A stretch of 56,619 nucleotides of DNA from Clostridiaceae bacterium JG1575. GTDB lineage: Bacteria > Bacillota > Clostridia > Clostridiales > Clostridiaceae. Shown in pieces: positions 13,214 through 22,915 of this stretch. The stretch spans positions 1-56,619 of the forward strand of contig LQGW01000019.1 of assembly GCA_002838815.1 (NCBI GenBank), read 5' to 3'. How positions within the stretch are numbered: the first letter of the stretch is position 1; every line of letters starts with the position of its first letter. The notes beneath the pieces were generated by a model. It made no database searches, was not told the DNA's origin, and saw only the letters and a program-made list of their open reading frames with translations. The position numbers and the translations under genes are program-made.

Positions 13214-14209
13214 TCAAGCTTCTTCGTCCCACCACACATCGCCCCAACCACCATCCTTCGCTCTTTGGTAGCGCTCGCCCTCTTTTTTCCGAACGCAAAG
13301 AGGGTGGATGCCCGTTTCATCGCAAAGCAGTAGTTCGCGGGCTCCTTTACGAACCAAGGGATGGCGAAGGATGCGCCGACCCCTTGCGCCTTCGGGAGCA
13401 GCTTTTGAAAAGAGCATATATTGAAACTTTTCATCCTCATAGGCAAGAGTGGCTCCTTTGAGCCGACGAAGCCTTGCTGAGCGCTGGATCCGCAACGAAA
13501 AATGACACCAACTCTCGCTTTCTTCCATGGGACAAGGACCGTTGAAGGTACAGGGCGCAAGCACATGATATCCCTGGGCCAGGGCCTGCGTTCGCATCCG
13601 CATCAACCCCTGGGTATGGTGCGGCGTTCCCGGTACCACCAAAAGAAAAAAGGCTGGCTCTTGAGCCAAAACCCGCTGCAAAAGCACCTCCTGCTCCTGA
13701 TCCTTGAGCTCATTGACCATGTAACTGGCCAAAACAAGGTCGGCTTTGGACCAAGGCCCCTGGGCGAAGGAGGTCTCCTGCCAATGAATGCGGACGCCCT
13801 CGCGCAAAGGTAGGGCACGAAGGAGTTTTTCCCCAGCCATTTTCATCGCCGGCTGTTCTTCCAAAAGATGCACCTCAAGGTCCATGGGGAATGTATGAAG
13901 AAGGGCCGGAACGCTGCTGGCGGGACCCGCCCCAAGATCCAGGACGCGCAGTGGTTCGGGAAGCGCCTGTTGCGGAATCCGTCGCAAAATCGCCTGCAGC
14001 ACCAAAGCCGTTGCCGGCAAGCGCCAAGCAAGGTAGCCCAAAGCCTCCATCTGCGAGGCCACCGCAAGATCCGCCCACGCAATGGTTGGGGTGCGATACC
14101 GCTTTGATAAAGCGCTCGCCGCGTCCCCGAGAGCGCGCTCCCCCTCTTTGGAGAGCACCTCTTCCACCACCTGATGGAGCTGCATATTCAACCCATTGTC
14201 TGCCTTCAT
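13214..14209 (-). CDS. Rsm22/METTL17-family ribosomal methyltransferase-like protein
   Basis: A 331-residue protein of the Rsm22 family (relatives act in assembly of the small ribosomal subunit, notably in mitochondria). The SAM-binding region is LRVLDLGAGPASSVPALL, near residues 87-104. The family block with cysteines is APCTFNGPCPMEESESWCHF, followed by RIQRSARLRRLKGATLAYED and EKFQY. The C-x5-C-x8-C pattern plus a later cysteine (ELLLCDETG) matches the iron-sulphur ligands described for METTL17. It is therefore inferred to bind an iron-sulphur cluster. The start at 14209 has a GAGG site at long spacing. It is divergent from rubredoxin. Confidence 0.8.
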   Translation of the reverse strand: MKADNGLNMQLHQVVEEVLSKEGERALGDAASALSKRYRTPTIAWADLAVASQMEALGYLAWRLPATALVLQAILRRIPQQALPEPLRVLDLGAGPASSVPALLHTFPMDLEVHLLEEQPAMKMAGEKLLRALPLREGVRIHWQETSFAQGPWSKADLVLASYMVNELKDQEQEVLLQRVLAQEPAFFLLVVPGTPHHTQGLMRMRTQALAQGYHVLAPCTFNGPCPMEESESWCHFSLRIQRSARLRRLKGATLAYEDEKFQYMLFSKAAPEGARGRRILRHPLVRKGARELLLCDETGIHPLCVRKKEGERYQRAKDGGWGDVWWDEEA

Positions 14210-14593: not shown

Positions 14594-15241
14594 TTAGGCC
14601 AGGGGCGAGGCTCGAGCCACCACCAAAAACCGCAGGGAAACCTCCGGCAACTTCTCCAAAACCCATTGAGCCCCCCGAAGGCTTGCTCCCGTGGTTGCCA
14701 CATCATCAAACAAAAGAATGGAGCGACCCTTCAACTGATGAATAGTATCTTCCCGCAACGCAAAGGCTTGTTGAAGGTTTTGCAGCCGTTGGTTGCGATT
14801 TTTCTTTTTTTGCTGCCCGTCTCGAAGATTGATCAGCCCTTGAACCACAGGAACCTCCAGGGCGCGTCCCCACGAACGGGCAAGATCCCCACAAGGATCA
14901 AAGCCTCTTTTTTTAAGGTTGGCGCGACAGCTGGGAATTGGCACAATGCAATCCGGGGTAAAGCCTCCAGGAGGAGTCCACTGGATCAGGTACTGCAAAA
15001 GAGCATCCTTTGCGGCAAAGCAGTGATGGTTTTTATATTCATGCAGCAACGCTTGAGCCGTGCCGCAATAATAAAAAAGTGCATCTCCGGGCAAATCGCC
15101 CACCGCAAACGAGCCGTAGGGGCGGAGCGTTTTTAGACAAAGAGCGCAAACGCCATCGGAAGAGGCCTTGCAAATCGGGCATTCCCGCTGCTCAAACAAA
15201 AGGGAGACGATCCCTTTTCGAAGCGTTGCTTTCGCCATCAT
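14594..15241 (-). CDS. comFC: ComFC-type phosphoribosyltransferase-fold protein
   Basis: A 215-residue ComF family protein linked to DNA uptake in transformation. An N-terminal zinc knuckle (CPICKASSDGVCALC) precedes a type I PRTase domain with the PRPP loop SILLFDDVATTGASLRGA. The region IVPIPSCRANLKKRGFDP is the family's conserved RGF/RGYNQ segment. Its start overlaps the stop of the upstream ComFA-like gene (ATGATG around 15241), so the two are coupled. The pair lies in one transcript behind recD2. The partner helicase is degenerate (see 15238-16206), which makes the role of this copy less certain. Confidence 0.85.
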   Translation of the reverse strand: MMAKATLRKGIVSLLFEQRECPICKASSDGVCALCLKTLRPYGSFAVGDLPGDALFYYCGTAQALLHEYKNHHCFAAKDALLQYLIQWTPPGGFTPDCIVPIPSCRANLKKRGFDPCGDLARSWGRALEVPVVQGLINLRDGQQKKKNRNQRLQNLQQAFALREDTIHQLKGRSILLFDDVATTGASLRGAQWVLEKLPEVSLRFLVVARASPLA

Positions 15242-16206
15242 CGGAGCTCTTCACGTTCCCAAAGGGTCTGGTTGAATTGCCTTGCGATGTCTTTGGCCCG
15301 CAGCATATCCTGCGTCGCTTCCTTGCCAAACAACAGCACCTCGCCATTGATGTCGCTTTGCATCCCTGCCCGAACGCAAAGAAAAACAAAGCCTCGGTAA
15401 TCCACCGGGGCCCCTGGGGCATCTGCCACGATGAATTCAATGTTTTGAGGAAGTTCGGTAAAGTCTTGAATCGTTGGGCAAAGCATTAAGGCGCGGCCCA
15501 AACCTGCGCCCGCTAAAGAAAGCCCCTCTTTTTTTTGGGGGGGCGCCACGAGATCCTTCGCCAAGGAGGGATCGATGCGCAGCAAATAGTCCCTAAGGCT
15601 TTCCAAAGTGTCCTCGGGTGCAAAAAGCACCACCAATCGCTGATCGTTTAAGAAAAAGCTTAAAAAATCAAACAAAGAATTGCAGACCCCTTCTTTGGGA
15701 TCCACTTGGGATAAGAGAATGCGTGGCTCGGAGATGTAGTGGTGTTTCTTTTCCACCAGTCCCTCTAAGCTCATGGCCGAGGAAAACACCTTATCCACCG
15801 ACAAGGACAGCCGCCGCCGGCCAAGGCGCAAGGCATGAAGAAGAACCTCTTCTTTAAGGGAAAGCGGATACTCAGGAAAGCCCGTCAGATCATCAAAAAT
15901 CACCAGGTCGTACGCATCACTTGCCAAGAGGGCCTCTGGGGCCTCCAAAAGAACTACGGAGGCCCTGGGGTCCTCTTGGTGCGCCAAAAAAAGATCCAGA
16001 TTCTTCCAAGGCGCCGATTCCGGGGAAGGCTCCTTCGAAGAGCCTTTCACCCAAAGGATGCGCTCTCCTTTCGTCAAGGCTTGAAACAATCCCGCCAAAG
16101 GCTCCAAGCTAGAGTATGGCAGTGCGATCAAATTCAAGTCCTTTTGCCTGCCCGAACGATACCACTGCGCCAATTTCTGGTGTAACGCTCCATTGCGATC
16201 CCTCAC
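15238..16206 (-). CDS. Degenerate ComFA-like protein lacking helicase catalytic motifs
   Basis: A 322-residue protein I place as a decayed or repurposed ComFA by position and by two residual matches. YDLVIFDDLTGFPEYPLS (residues 99-116) sits where ComFA has its Walker B/DEVDAFP box. VRAGMQSDINGEVLLFG and the following AKDIARQFNQ (residues 278-315) sit where ComFA has GRVGR..D.PTGEV and its C-terminal helix. No Walker A loop, DEAD/DEVD acid pair or arginine finger is present, and the four-cysteine zinc site is absent. It overlaps both recD2 and comFC by four bases, so it is an intact member of the operon rather than debris. The match is by eye, so moderate confidence. Confidence 0.55.
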   Translation of the reverse strand: MRDRNGALHQKLAQWYRSGRQKDLNLIALPYSSLEPLAGLFQALTKGERILWVKGSSKEPSPESAPWKNLDLFLAHQEDPRASVVLLEAPEALLASDAYDLVIFDDLTGFPEYPLSLKEEVLLHALRLGRRRLSLSVDKVFSSAMSLEGLVEKKHHYISEPRILLSQVDPKEGVCNSLFDFLSFFLNDQRLVVLFAPEDTLESLRDYLLRIDPSLAKDLVAPPQKKEGLSLAGAGLGRALMLCPTIQDFTELPQNIEFIVADAPGAPVDYRGFVFLCVRAGMQSDINGEVLLFGKEATQDMLRAKDIARQFNQTLWEREELR

Positions 16207-18479
16207 GGCAACTCCTCCCTTTCCGGGTCCAAAAATGCCTCTTTTTGCAAACCATCCCTTGGGGGCTCTTGATGTGGAAAACCCTCCTGAGCCCTTCGCA
16301 GCCGCCAGCCTAGGGAGGTATGGCGCTGAAACGAGCGATCATTTGCGACCATGAAGCGCAGCGCCCTAGAACTCCCGATCAAGACCACTAGGGCTCGGGC
16401 TCTAGTAACCGCGGTGTACAGCAAATTGCGATTCATCAAAAGAGGCGGTCCCATAAAGACCGGCAACAGCACCACTGGAAATTCTGAGCCCTGGCTTTTG
16501 TGAATGGTAATGGCGTAGGCCAGCTCCAAATCGTCCAAATCCCCCACGCCGTAATCCACATAGCGATCCTCATACTGCACCGTGACAATCTGATCTTCCT
16601 TGGCTAGGGACGCTACATACCCCACATCTCCATTGAACACTCCGGTTTCTTCCGCCTCGATTCCCGGGATTGCTTCTAGGGTGTTGCGGGATTTTAACTG
16701 GTAGTTGTTGCGGTTTTGCATGACCTTATCGCCGATGCGAAATTCGGTGAAGCCCGCTGAAGCTCCCTTGGGATTGAGCACCCCTTTTAAGTGCTCATTG
16801 AGGGCGTGAATGCCCAAATCTCCTTTGCGCATGGGGGAGAGCACCTGAATGTCGCGCAAGGGGTCCCACTCTTGATGAAATTTTGGCAACCGCTCTTGCA
16901 CCAGGCCAATGAGGCAATCCACCGTGGCGGGGGCATCGGGAGTCTCAAGGAAGAAAAAATCCCCCGCCCGCGCATTCATCAAAGGCGCCTCACCATGATT
17001 GATCCGGTGAGCATTGACGGTGATCATGGATTCCTTGCCTTGGCGATAAATCCGCTCAAGACGCACCACCGGACAGGCGCCCCCTTCCATAATGTCGGAG
17101 AGCACCCGGCCTGGGCCCACGCTGGGCAGCTGATCGGCATCCCCCACCAATACCAAGCGAGTACTCTGCTTTAGAGAGGACACGAGGTGCTTCATCAAGA
17201 GGACATCGATCATGGAGGCCTCATCGATGATGACGCAGTCCGCCTCCAAAAGGTCGCCCTCTTGGTCGTCAATGCCCTCCTCGCTCATGCCCAAAGAGAG
17301 CATTCGATGGATGGTTTTGGCTTCGCCTCCTGTGGCTTCACTCATTCGCTTGGCGGCGCGCCCCGTGGGAGCCGCCATCAAAACCTTTTGGTTTGAGCGC
17401 TCCAATAGGGTTAAAATGGCTTTGATAATGGTGGTTTTCCCCGTGCCTGGGCCCCCCGTGATGACGACCATCCCCTCTTCCACAACACTCAGTATCGCTT
17501 TTTTTTGCTGCGGATGCAGCGTCAGGTGATGCTCCTTCTCATAGCGCTCGAAAAACTGCTCCGGGTTAACCTTCAGCCGGGGGAAGACTTGCCTGCCTCC
17601 CAAAAGAAGATGCTCCGCAATCTGCACCTCGCTGTGCCAGTAGCTGCCGATGAAGGCGCATTGCTCGCCATCGATCTCCTCCACCTTTAGGCTGTCCTGA
17701 AGAATCATGTGCCTAAGTGCGGTCAAAATGGACGCCTCCTCAACCTCCAAAAGCTTCCCTGCCTCTTTTAATAGAGCCGTCAAGGGCATACAGGTATTCC
17801 CCGCGCCGCCAAAGGCTGCCACGGTATAATGGAGCCCACTCTCGATGCGAAAGGGGGAATCCTTCTCAATGCCCAGGTTCATGGCGATGCGATCCGCCGT
17901 GCGAAAGCCAAAGCTCGGAATGTCCTCACAAAGAACGTACGGGTTTTCCCGCACGCGCCCGATGGCGGCTTGTCCGTACCGATTGTATATTTTCATGCAT
18001 TGTCGCGGCGTCACGCCATAGCTTTGCAAAAAGACCATAATGGTTCGAACTTCACGGCTACGCTCATAACTTTGGGCGATGCGCTCCAGCTTTTTTTCGC
18101 CAATCCCCTCCACTTCCTTGAGCCTTGTTATATCCTCATCCATGACCTCAAAGAGCTCCAGCCCAAAGTAAGCCACCAGGCGTTTGGCCAACGCTGGGCC
18201 AATGCCCGCCAGCACGCCGGAGGAGAGGTATCGTTCGAGCCCTTCCTTCGTTTCCGGTCGGATTTCCTCTGCCTTTTCAACTTTCAGCTGAGGGCCGAAG
18301 CTTTTGTGCTCCACCATCTCGCCTTCAAGCGCCACCAACATGCCTTCATAAACCCAAGGCAAGGTGCCCGTAAAGGTCAAAACAGTGCCGGCTCCCTTGA
18401 CGCGAGCCACCACATATCCGGTTTCTTCATTCCGGTAAATGATGTCCTTGACCGTTCCTTTAATATCCAGCTCCTCCAC
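16203..18479 (-). CDS. recD2: RecD2-type SF1B DNA helicase
   Basis: A 758-residue 5'-to-3' DNA helicase of the RecD2 family, which acts without RecBC in replication and repair. Order: N-terminal OB-like domain beginning EELDIKGTVKDIIYRNEETG, helix-hairpin-helix region (SSGVLAGIGPALAKRL, KEVEGIGEKKLERI), Walker A VVITGGPGTGKTTIIKAI, Walker B CVIIDEASMIDV, VGDADQLPSVGPGRV, and the C-terminal SH3-like and motif VI region YAITIHKSQGSEFPVV and TAVTRARALV. The start is unclear: GTG at 18479 gives the normal N-terminus, but the best ribosome site (AAGGAGGTGGAGG) overlaps it. A TATAAT close upstream suggests a very short leader. It heads the operon with the ComFA-like gene and comFC. Confidence 0.93.
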   Translation of the reverse strand: MEELDIKGTVKDIIYRNEETGYVVARVKGAGTVLTFTGTLPWVYEGMLVALEGEMVEHKSFGPQLKVEKAEEIRPETKEGLERYLSSGVLAGIGPALAKRLVAYFGLELFEVMDEDITRLKEVEGIGEKKLERIAQSYERSREVRTIMVFLQSYGVTPRQCMKIYNRYGQAAIGRVRENPYVLCEDIPSFGFRTADRIAMNLGIEKDSPFRIESGLHYTVAAFGGAGNTCMPLTALLKEAGKLLEVEEASILTALRHMILQDSLKVEEIDGEQCAFIGSYWHSEVQIAEHLLLGGRQVFPRLKVNPEQFFERYEKEHHLTLHPQQKKAILSVVEEGMVVITGGPGTGKTTIIKAILTLLERSNQKVLMAAPTGRAAKRMSEATGGEAKTIHRMLSLGMSEEGIDDQEGDLLEADCVIIDEASMIDVLLMKHLVSSLKQSTRLVLVGDADQLPSVGPGRVLSDIMEGGACPVVRLERIYRQGKESMITVNAHRINHGEAPLMNARAGDFFFLETPDAPATVDCLIGLVQERLPKFHQEWDPLRDIQVLSPMRKGDLGIHALNEHLKGVLNPKGASAGFTEFRIGDKVMQNRNNYQLKSRNTLEAIPGIEAEETGVFNGDVGYVASLAKEDQIVTVQYEDRYVDYGVGDLDDLELAYAITIHKSQGSEFPVVLLPVFMGPPLLMNRNLLYTAVTRARALVVLIGSSRALRFMVANDRSFQRHTSLGWRLRRAQEGFPHQEPPRDGLQKEAFLDPEREELP

Positions 18480-21190: not shown

Positions 21191-22390
21191 TTATGCTTTT
21201 TGCGCCAATTCCTTCATGGCGCTTTGAATCGCGTCGACGCGGTTGAGCTCTTCCCAAGGCAAATTCAGATCGCTTCGTCCAAAATGGCCATAGGCAGCTA
21301 CCTGACGATAGAGGGGACGACGTAGATTCAAGGTCTTAATGATGGCGCCGGGCCGCAGATCAAAGACTCGATGAATCACTTTAATGATCGCGTCAGAATC
21401 CATCGTTCCCGTGCCGAAGGTATCCACTTCAATGGACACAGGTTCGGCCACGCCGATGGCGTAGGCCAATTCGATTTCGATCTTATCGGCCACCCCAGCA
21501 GCAACTAGGTTTTTAGCCACCCAGCGCGCTGCATATGCCGCAGAACGATCCACCTTCGTGGGATCCTTACCCGAGAAGCAACCCCCGCCATGGCGTCCGT
21601 AGCCGCCATAGGTGTCCACAATGATCTTACGGCCCGTGAGGCCCGAATCTGCGCCCGGACCGCCCAACACAAAGCGACCGGTGGGATTGATGAAATAACG
21701 GGTGTTTTCATCCAAAAGATATGCGGGAATCACCGGCAGAATCACCTGTTCGCGGATGTCCTGGGTGATTTGCTCCAAGCTCACATCCGGTGCATGCTGT
21801 GTGGAGATGACGATGGTGTCCACCCGTACGGGCGTTTCATCTTCATATTCCACCGTAACCTGGGTTTTTCCGTCCGGCCGAAGATACGGCAGGGTTTTGT
21901 CCTTTCGCACCATTGCTAAGCGGCGGGCCAGCTGATGCGCCAAATCAATGGGCATGGGCAGATAGTTTTCCGTTTCGTTGGTAGCAAACCCGAACATCAT
22001 GCCCTGATCTCCGGCACCAAAGGTTTCCTCAAAGGTTTTTTGCGCCTCGCCACGAGCTTCCAGAGCGTTGTCCACGCCCATGGCGATATCCGGACTTTGT
22101 TCGTTGATGGTGGTCACTACCGCGCAGGTTTCGGCATCGAAACCATATTTTGCCCGTACGTAGCCGATCTCTTTAATGGTTTTTCGCACCAGCTTTTGAA
22201 TGTCGATGTAGCAGGACGTGGTGATTTCGCCCATGACCATGACCAGTCCCGTGGTGGCACAGGTCTCGCAGGCCACTCGGGCATCAGGGTCATCGGTTAG
22301 GATGGCGTCCAGTACTGCGTCGGATATTTGGTCGCAGACTTTATCCGGATGTCCCTCCGTGACGGATTCAGATGTGAATAATCGTTTCAT
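21191..22390 (-). CDS. metK: S-adenosylmethionine synthetase
   Basis: A 399-residue MAT enzyme making SAM from methionine and ATP. Conserved segments are [36 protein letters not shown], the P-loop-like [20 protein letters not shown], and [20 protein letters not shown]. The length and start are standard. Expression is controlled by the SAM-I riboswitch and terminator at 22471-22612. The upstream tRNA cluster ends only about 20 bases before the riboswitch, and I see no promoter in between, so metK may be transcribed from the tRNA promoter at 22936-22965. Confidence 0.98.
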
Positions 22391-22513: not shown

Positions 22514-22612
22514 CTCTCATCTTGCGATCATCATCGCCGGAATTGGCACCGTACGCTTTCGCCGGTTGCCGGGTTTCACAGGGCCTAGTCCCTCCACCTC
22601 TCTGGATAAGAG
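22514..22612 (-). ncRNA. SAM-I (S-box) riboswitch
   Basis: All S-box landmarks are present on the minus strand in order: CTCTTATCCAGAGAGG (P1 and the start of P2), TGGAGGGACTAGGCCC, GTGAAACCCGGCAACC, GGTGCCAATTCC, and the closing GATGAGAG that pairs back with CTCTTATC. It senses SAM and, through the terminator at 22471-22500, switches off metK. The 5' end lies about 20 bases downstream of a tRNA-Tyr. Confidence 0.97.
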
Positions 22613-22634: not shown

Positions 22635-22716
22635 TGGAGGAGAGTGGATTTGAACCACTGAAGTCTAAGACAACAGATTTACAGTCTGCCCCCTTTGGCC
22701 ACTCGGGAACTCCTCC
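22635..22716 (-). tRNA. tRNA-Tyr (anticodon GTA), copy 2
   Basis: Acceptor GGAGGAG pairs with CTCCTCC. The anticodon arm contains CAGACTGTAAATCTG, there is a long class II variable arm, and the T arm is GTTCAAATC. CCA is encoded (22632-22634). It is identical to the copy at 22834-22915. Its 5' end touches the encoded CCA of the preceding tRNA-Thr with no spacer. Confidence 0.97.
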
Positions 22717-22719
22717 TGG

Positions 22720-22791
22720 AGCTGGTGGTCAGAATCGAACTGACAACCTGCTGATTACAAATCAGCTGCTCTGCCTTTGAGCCACACCAGC
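22720..22791 (-). tRNA. tRNA-Thr (anticodon TGT)
   Basis: Acceptor GCTGGTG/CACCAGC, anticodon arm GCTGATTTGTAATCAGC with TGT, T loop GTTCGATTC. CCA is encoded at 22717-22719. Confidence 0.95.
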
Positions 22792-22833
22792 GTAAACAGG
22801 TCTGCCTATTGGCAGGGTATCGGAAAAATATGG

Positions 22834-22915
22834 TGGAGGAGAGTGGATTTGAACCACTGAAGTCTAAGACAACAGATTTACAGTCTGCCCCCTTTGGCCA
22901 CTCGGGAACTCCTCC
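22834..22915 (-). tRNA. tRNA-Tyr (anticodon GTA), copy 1
   Basis: First gene of the tRNA transcript, with sequence identical to the second tRNA-Tyr. CCA is encoded at 22831-22833. The promoter at 22936-22965 lies just upstream. Confidence 0.97.

Follow-up and report, generated by a model that had tools for sequence, protein, structure and literature searches.

ComFA, of the Bacillus subtilis and Streptococcus pneumoniae type, is the late competence DNA translocase ATPase, and it works with ComFC. What, then, is a protein that is encoded just upstream of comFC, resembles ComFA along its helicase core, and yet lacks the ATPase motifs of ComFA? The question is raised by contig LQGW01000019.1 of Clostridiaceae bacterium JG1575, analysed here as a single stretch of 56,619 nucleotides (the window), in which a gene of 322 codons at 15238-16206, which we call X, lies between recD2 and comFC:

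16203..18479, minus strand: recD2, coding for an SF1B helicase, with a 4-nt overlap with X (NCBIfam TIGR01448, E 4.4e-247)
16212..16219, minus strand: Shine-Dalgarno-like GGGAGGAG, a few bases 5' of the X start and within the end of recD2 (sequence inspection)
15238..16206, minus strand: X, very probably a ComFA-derived pseudo-ATPase (pseudo-helicase), 322 aa, GTG start, TGA stop (frame, family homologues, ComFA profile match, SF2 fold)
14594..15241, minus strand: comFC, with a 4-nt overlap with X (NCBIfam TIGR00201, E 2.4e-16, under the curated cut-off)

Translation of the minus strand of the window gives an X frame that is free of internal stops, so that the intact 322-residue frame described in an earlier note on this DNA, with its overlap of four bases on each side, is confirmed. 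The product of comFC begins with a zinc-ribbon-like region with cysteine pairs, which is followed by a phosphoribosyltransferase domain with the PRPP-loop-like motif DDVATTGAS.

Window X matches none of the Pfam and NCBIfam models; sequence searches of the PDB with X give nothing better than E 0.26, and a single-protein scan of the contigs of the genome gives no relative. When 25 members of the family are considered, Pfam returns weak matches to Helicase_C in 7 of them (best E 0.00081) and to DEAD in 2 (best E 0.0001), which accords with a helicase origin. Over the same 25 sequences, NCBIfam returns RecG in 2 members (best 0.0047). PHROGs, searched with window X and a Clostridium member, gives a single phrog match (E 0.0079), to the Clostridium member, and PADLOC gives none. 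X marks out a protein family that is covered by no Pfam or NCBIfam model at its cut-off.

This family is spread far beyond the window's own lineage, over most of the Clostridiaceae. A search with window X over the family finds homologues in 137 of the 146 genomes and in 42 of the 46 genera; in the nine other genomes, X was found neither by this search nor by profile. The sequences are very divergent: the best match in each genome (the window itself being excluded) is 18-34% identical to window X, and even its nearest relatives reach just 32-34%. When a profile of X is run over 291 genomes of the class, it detects X in 11 of the 13 genomes listed there from the window's family. Its only other hits are five weak ones, which were not counted as X: three are RadA-like and one UvrB-like (by eye), and the last is a fragment (L139). 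Of the 57 X loci that were retrieved, most bear the label Clostridium or that of another genus of the Clostridiaceae, Proteiniclasticum, and some are from MAGs with broader labels; the nearest relative among them (L116) comes from a MAG assigned to Clostridium sp. A further MAG, L109, contains X under the label Oscillospiraceae, and is either a mislabelled bin or a case from outside the family. In a Clostridium MAG (L124, 5917-6827), X is broken mid-gene next to an intact comFC, as a result of either decay or an assembly error. Of the alignments of X, A1 contains 25 of a set of 30 X loci, near-duplicates being left out, A5 contains 37 of the 57 loci, and A4 contains 48 of the 57, without L108, L122 and L124 (cut or broken), the near-duplicates L075, L102, L103, L105 and L119, and L123, whose X frame is itself intact but was cut short by the start codon chosen for it.

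The sequence profiles, the fold and the gene order support the descent of X from comFA, whose slot upstream of comFC it occupies. When a profile of 25 X is compared with one of 24 ComFA, the two families align with E 1.1e-26 over 319 columns, colinearly all the way from where the helicase core begins to the final helix; repeats of the comparison gave 1.7e-36 (global, 30 + 29 sequences), 3.6e-27 (local) and 8.3e-28 (70 X). The sole profile control for X, a set of 19 sequences identified as PriA-like by their motifs and length (L167 being left out), gives a probability of 2.1% and E 0.023 with X, versus E 1.1e-34 with ComFA. Window X alone matches ComFA with a probability of 96.1% and E 3.2e-9 over 270 columns, versus 0.5% for PriA. 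The ComFA sets exclude L042, which has an internal stop, and alignment A2 excludes five further short pieces. The earlier note had aligned two segments of X by eye with conserved boxes of ComFA; the profile-profile alignment agrees, and puts YDLVIFDDLTGFP against FDVLIIDEVDAFP and VRAGMQSDINGEV against ISGRAGRHPDFFKGDV.

Canonical ComFA, for which the earlier note had advised a search elsewhere in the genome, was found neither in this genome nor in the rest of the 146 family genomes, among the candidates scored against the ComFA profile, at most 12 in each genome. The 25 best matches listed in this search are all X, up to E 1.1e-32, and they rank above proteins of the size of Mfd, RecG and PriA. 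In many genomes of the family, including that of the window, generic helicases outscore X against the same profile, and window X falls short of E 1e-10, which makes it an outlying member of its family. Canonical ComFA was also not seen at E 1e-18 in the 291 genomes of the class, with a maximum of six candidates scored in each; the matches at E <=1e-18, in 22 of the 291 genomes, were two X, one Mfd-like protein and otherwise PriA-like proteins (by eye). As a yardstick, a single ComFA bait gives E <=1.4e-29 in 125 of 299 genomes of the phylum, and in none of the 10 class genomes included there.

X has a two-RecA-domain SF2 core according to the predicted structures, a fold which by itself shows no function. 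The AlphaFold2 model of window X has a pLDDT of 84.7 and a pTM of 0.85 (alignment of 49 sequences), and that of the X from C. magnum has a pLDDT of 90.3 and a pTM of 0.90 (38 sequences). Both models match solved structures of SF2 translocases over nearly their full length. The match to PriA (8fak) has E 1.5e-8 for the window model and 1.3e-8 for the C. magnum model; UvrB (1c4o) superimposes on the window model with Z 20.4 and rmsd 4.3 over 300 residues, and Mfd (6x2f) on the C. magnum model with Z 22.2 and rmsd 3.5 over 306 residues, a result on a par with that for UvrB (Z 21.9). The SF2 fold that had been proposed for X is thus predicted to be kept, with Z scores of 20-22. While PriA, UvrB and Mfd are the best matches of X among solved structures, X has no significant profile match to PriA, and its likeness to UvrB and Mfd is one of fold alone.

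What has been lost, and what has been kept, becomes apparent when 70 distinct X of at least 290 aa, taken from the 30 and the 57 loci, are compared with 29 ComFA. Walker A (GxGKT), motif II (DExDAxP) and motif VI (GRxGR) are each present in 29 of 29 ComFA and in none of the 70 X; a DD pair replaces the second of these motifs, and a G[KR]xG[KR] sequence is found at the third in 19 X. The following positions of window X, all on the minus strand, correspond to these motifs or are conserved in the family:

16105..16125, minus strand: residues 28-34 (ALPYSSL), the loop at the place of ComFA Walker A, with P30 in 67/70 and no GKT (model and alignment)
15889..15894, minus strand: D105-D106 at the Walker B position, DE in ComFA and DD here, with D105 in 70/70 and D106 in 69/70 (alignment)
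15724..15729, minus strand: E160-P161, 70/70, at the junction into the second RecA domain, the PLPVP region of ComFA (alignment)
15364..15399, minus strand: residues 270-281, the helix at ComFA motif VI (QxxGRxGR), whose finger arginines are not kept (model and alignment)
15259..15273, minus strand: N312-W316 in the C-terminal helix, the Asn being invariant in ComFA too and the Trp specific to X (alignment)

Y270 (69/70) and E289, N312 and W316 (70/70 each) are likewise retained or newly fixed. Window X departs from positions that are at least 90% conserved in the family at W52, S166, Q167, C175, F179, F181, F184 and C243, in line with its divergence. The loss of the ATPase motifs, and that of Walker A in particular, had been read from this one sequence and holds for all 70. 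The earlier claim that the catalytic acids are missing is correct in part: the Glu of Walker B is replaced by an Asp (D106), but the first Asp, D105, is kept in all 70.

X and ComFA are alike in the colinear profile of their helicase core, their two-RecA SF2 fold, their slot before comFC and the invariant Asn of their last helix. They differ in that X has no C4 zinc domain, no Walker A, no DExDAxP (DD in X), no TATP and no GRxGR. X begins at the helicase core, so that the N-terminal domain with its four zinc-binding cysteines is gone, and any CxxC is found in only 2 of the 70 X. X is also shorter, about 320-345 aa, whereas the open frames of 29 of 30 ComFA loci are about 440-795 aa long, the remaining one being 381. 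We are highly confident that X is a family-wide ComFA-derived pseudo-ATPase, and its sequence indicates that it almost certainly does not hydrolyse ATP.

The order recD2-X-comFC, which the earlier note proposed to look for in related genomes, is conserved: recD2 is upstream of X in 57 of 57 loci, and comFC is downstream in 55 of 57, the two other loci ending inside X or just after it. Canonical comFA loci from elsewhere in the phylum (n = 30) have comFC within about 1 kb downstream in 28 cases and recD2 upstream in 3 (tblastn, with 1.5 kb of flank visible); the three genes recD2-comFA-comFC are found together in 2 of the 30, both from one family. This arrangement is therefore known with a Walker-containing ComFA, and X sits in the slot of the latter. 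In eight of the nine family genomes that have no X, recD2 precedes comFC and X is gone, the largest gap being about 470 nt (L183), which shows that ComFC does not strictly need X; the ninth (G045) yielded no comFC. At one of these loci (L184, from G033), comFC appears to be split into two frames at about 1127-1812 and looks frameshifted. Over the class, a comF match is present in 111 of 118 genomes, and among the best 30 comF loci, none of which is from the window's family, 22 have recD2 ahead of comFC and no X according to tblastn, the figure used here (motif tags gave 2/30 and 16/30). Regarding the junction between X and comFC, in 47 of the 57 loci the first possible start of comFC is situated within X, at a distance of 28 nt from its end in 39 loci and of 25 nt in 8, unlike the 4-nt overlap seen in the window.

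Selection on X was estimated as Nei-Gojobori dN/dS from 18 close pairs, which exclude window X and give point estimates. The values for X range from 0.016 to 0.27 in 17 pairs, the 18th being saturated; those for comFC range from 0.077 to 0.305 in 18 pairs, and those for recD2 from 0.018 to 0.115 in 17 (one was not obtained). X has a higher value than recD2 in most pairs. The constraint on X is similar in strength to that on comFC and weaker than that on recD2, which argues against it being a relic.

As for the cellular context, ComEC (PF03772) is found in 145 of the 146 family genomes and ComEA (TIGR00426) above cut-off in 133, the window's genome being included in both counts. The open frame of ComEC is about 446-451 aa long in G002, G013, G054, G074, G091 and G104, against about 550-620 in most genomes of the family, and a terminal domain is possibly missing in these six and in others. 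T2SSE-type ATPases (PF00437) are found in all 146 genomes, among 12 candidates scored per genome, with a best E of 2.0e-57 in that of the window. The window's genus and G005 (G000, G011, G052, G005) have weaker PF00437 matches, with best E from 2e-57 to 9e-68, when most genomes reach <=1e-100; G016, G080, G103, G110 and G129 are likewise low, among the same 12 candidates per genome. In the window's genus and G005, the ATPase for pilus assembly may have diverged or be absent.

For B. subtilis, PMC8262900 describes ComFC as the binding partner of ComFA, and reports that deletion of ComFA destabilises ComGA, which the Walker A mutant K152E does not. On the other hand, changes in the NTPase site of B. 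subtilis ComFA phenocopy the deletion with respect to transformation, according to PMC4381287, so that an inactive ComFA cannot perform all of the known functions of the protein. Taken together, these findings make a non-hydrolysing scaffold plausible, and they equally imply that such a protein cannot act as the motor. K152E resembles X as an ATPase-dead ComFA that keeps a structural role, in ComGA stability; it differs in being a laboratory point mutant, called inactivating in PMC8262900, whereas X is a natural family under selection. The weaker T2SSE-type ATPase matches make a ComGA-stabilising role of X doubtful in the window's genus. No description of an ATPase-less ComFA in Clostridia was found among the titles and abstracts listed by full-text searches of open-licence PMC papers.

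We think it rather probable that X is, as a whole, an ATPase-dead descendant of comFA that has been kept as a structural partner of ComFC. The gene order suggests the partnership between the two proteins. The ATPase would have been lost once, in an ancestor of the Clostridiaceae, and X and ComFC would probably be made from one message through their overlapping frames. X would then bind ComFC and keep it in position on the inner side of the ComEC/ComEA assembly for DNA uptake, and so perform the ATPase-independent half of the job of ComFA. If DNA is pulled at all, the force would have another source, or the apparatus may serve a handling of DNA other than efficient transformation. Taken by itself, this scaffold mechanism seems to us slightly more probable than its contrary.

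Four other readings have to be considered. X may have been re-employed outside DNA uptake, for instance to regulate the ComFC phosphoribosyltransferase or form one of its subunits, or as a cytoplasmic factor that handles single strands. Such a change of function would fit with the residues that are specific to X and invariant in 70/70 (E160, P161, W316), the loss of the catalytic motifs searched for, the binding of nucleotides and single-stranded DNA by ComFC that is reported in PMC9005727, and the fact that natural transformation by means of these genes in Clostridium was not found among the titles and abstracts listed by searches of open-licence PMC papers. However, ComEC is present in 145 and ComEA above cut-off in 133 of the 146 family genomes and X holds the place of comFA before comFC, and we consider this reading unlikely, although it has to be taken seriously. 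The earlier note had suggested that RecD2 perhaps supplies the motor, in which case X would be an adaptor. The presence of recD2 upstream of X in all 57 loci and its 4-nt overlap in the window speak for this, but recD2 also stands before comFC where there is no X, at 22 of 30 class loci and in 8 of the 9 family genomes without X, and before canonical comFA at 3 of 30 loci: its adjacency neither follows nor requires the loss of the ATPase. The proposal finds no specific support and we regard it as very unlikely.

The absence of X from 9 of 146 genomes, the broken copy in one MAG and the divergence of the family (18-34% identity of the best matches to window X) could be those of a decaying relic of comFA without present function. 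We give very little credence to this possibility, considering the occurrence of X in 42 of 46 genera, a range of dN/dS that overlaps that of comFC, the invariant residues and the high-confidence folded models. Last, since PriA, UvrB, Mfd and RadD all match X, the fold alone does not single out ComFA, and X could have its origin in a different protein of the RecA fold or of SF2, one that came to occupy this locus; with a profile that matches ComFA and not PriA, and the same slot before comFC, this origin deserves almost no credence.

In a more far-reaching reading, nearly the whole family would have kept the core DNA-uptake genes for ComEA, ComEC and ComFC but no ComFA driven by ATP, since the former ATPase would now be a conserved subunit that does not hydrolyse; we put this forward tentatively, as something slightly short of evenly balanced. 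Should it be true, either the Clostridiaceae take in DNA with no use of the motor known from transformable Gram-positives, or ComFA and ComFC together have a core function for which the ATPase is dispensable and which is the older one or the one more widely required. A natural ATPase-less ComFA under selection would separate the motor from the structural role, which in PMC8262900 rests on the laboratory mutant K152E. It also bears on whether DNA uptake is possible in Clostridium, which has ComEC, ComEA and ComFC.

We also note some features of the surroundings. In the window, comFC is followed by a gene for an Rsm22-family methyltransferase (13214-14209, minus strand; PF09243, E 7.9e-48), in the place of which several Clostridium loci have another gene, hpf-like by eye. 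On the other side, a metK-like gene (named by eye) lies at 21191-22390 on the minus strand, with a SAM riboswitch 5' of it at 22514-22612 (minus strand; RF00162, 80 bits), and behind this riboswitch there are three tRNA genes at 22635-22915.
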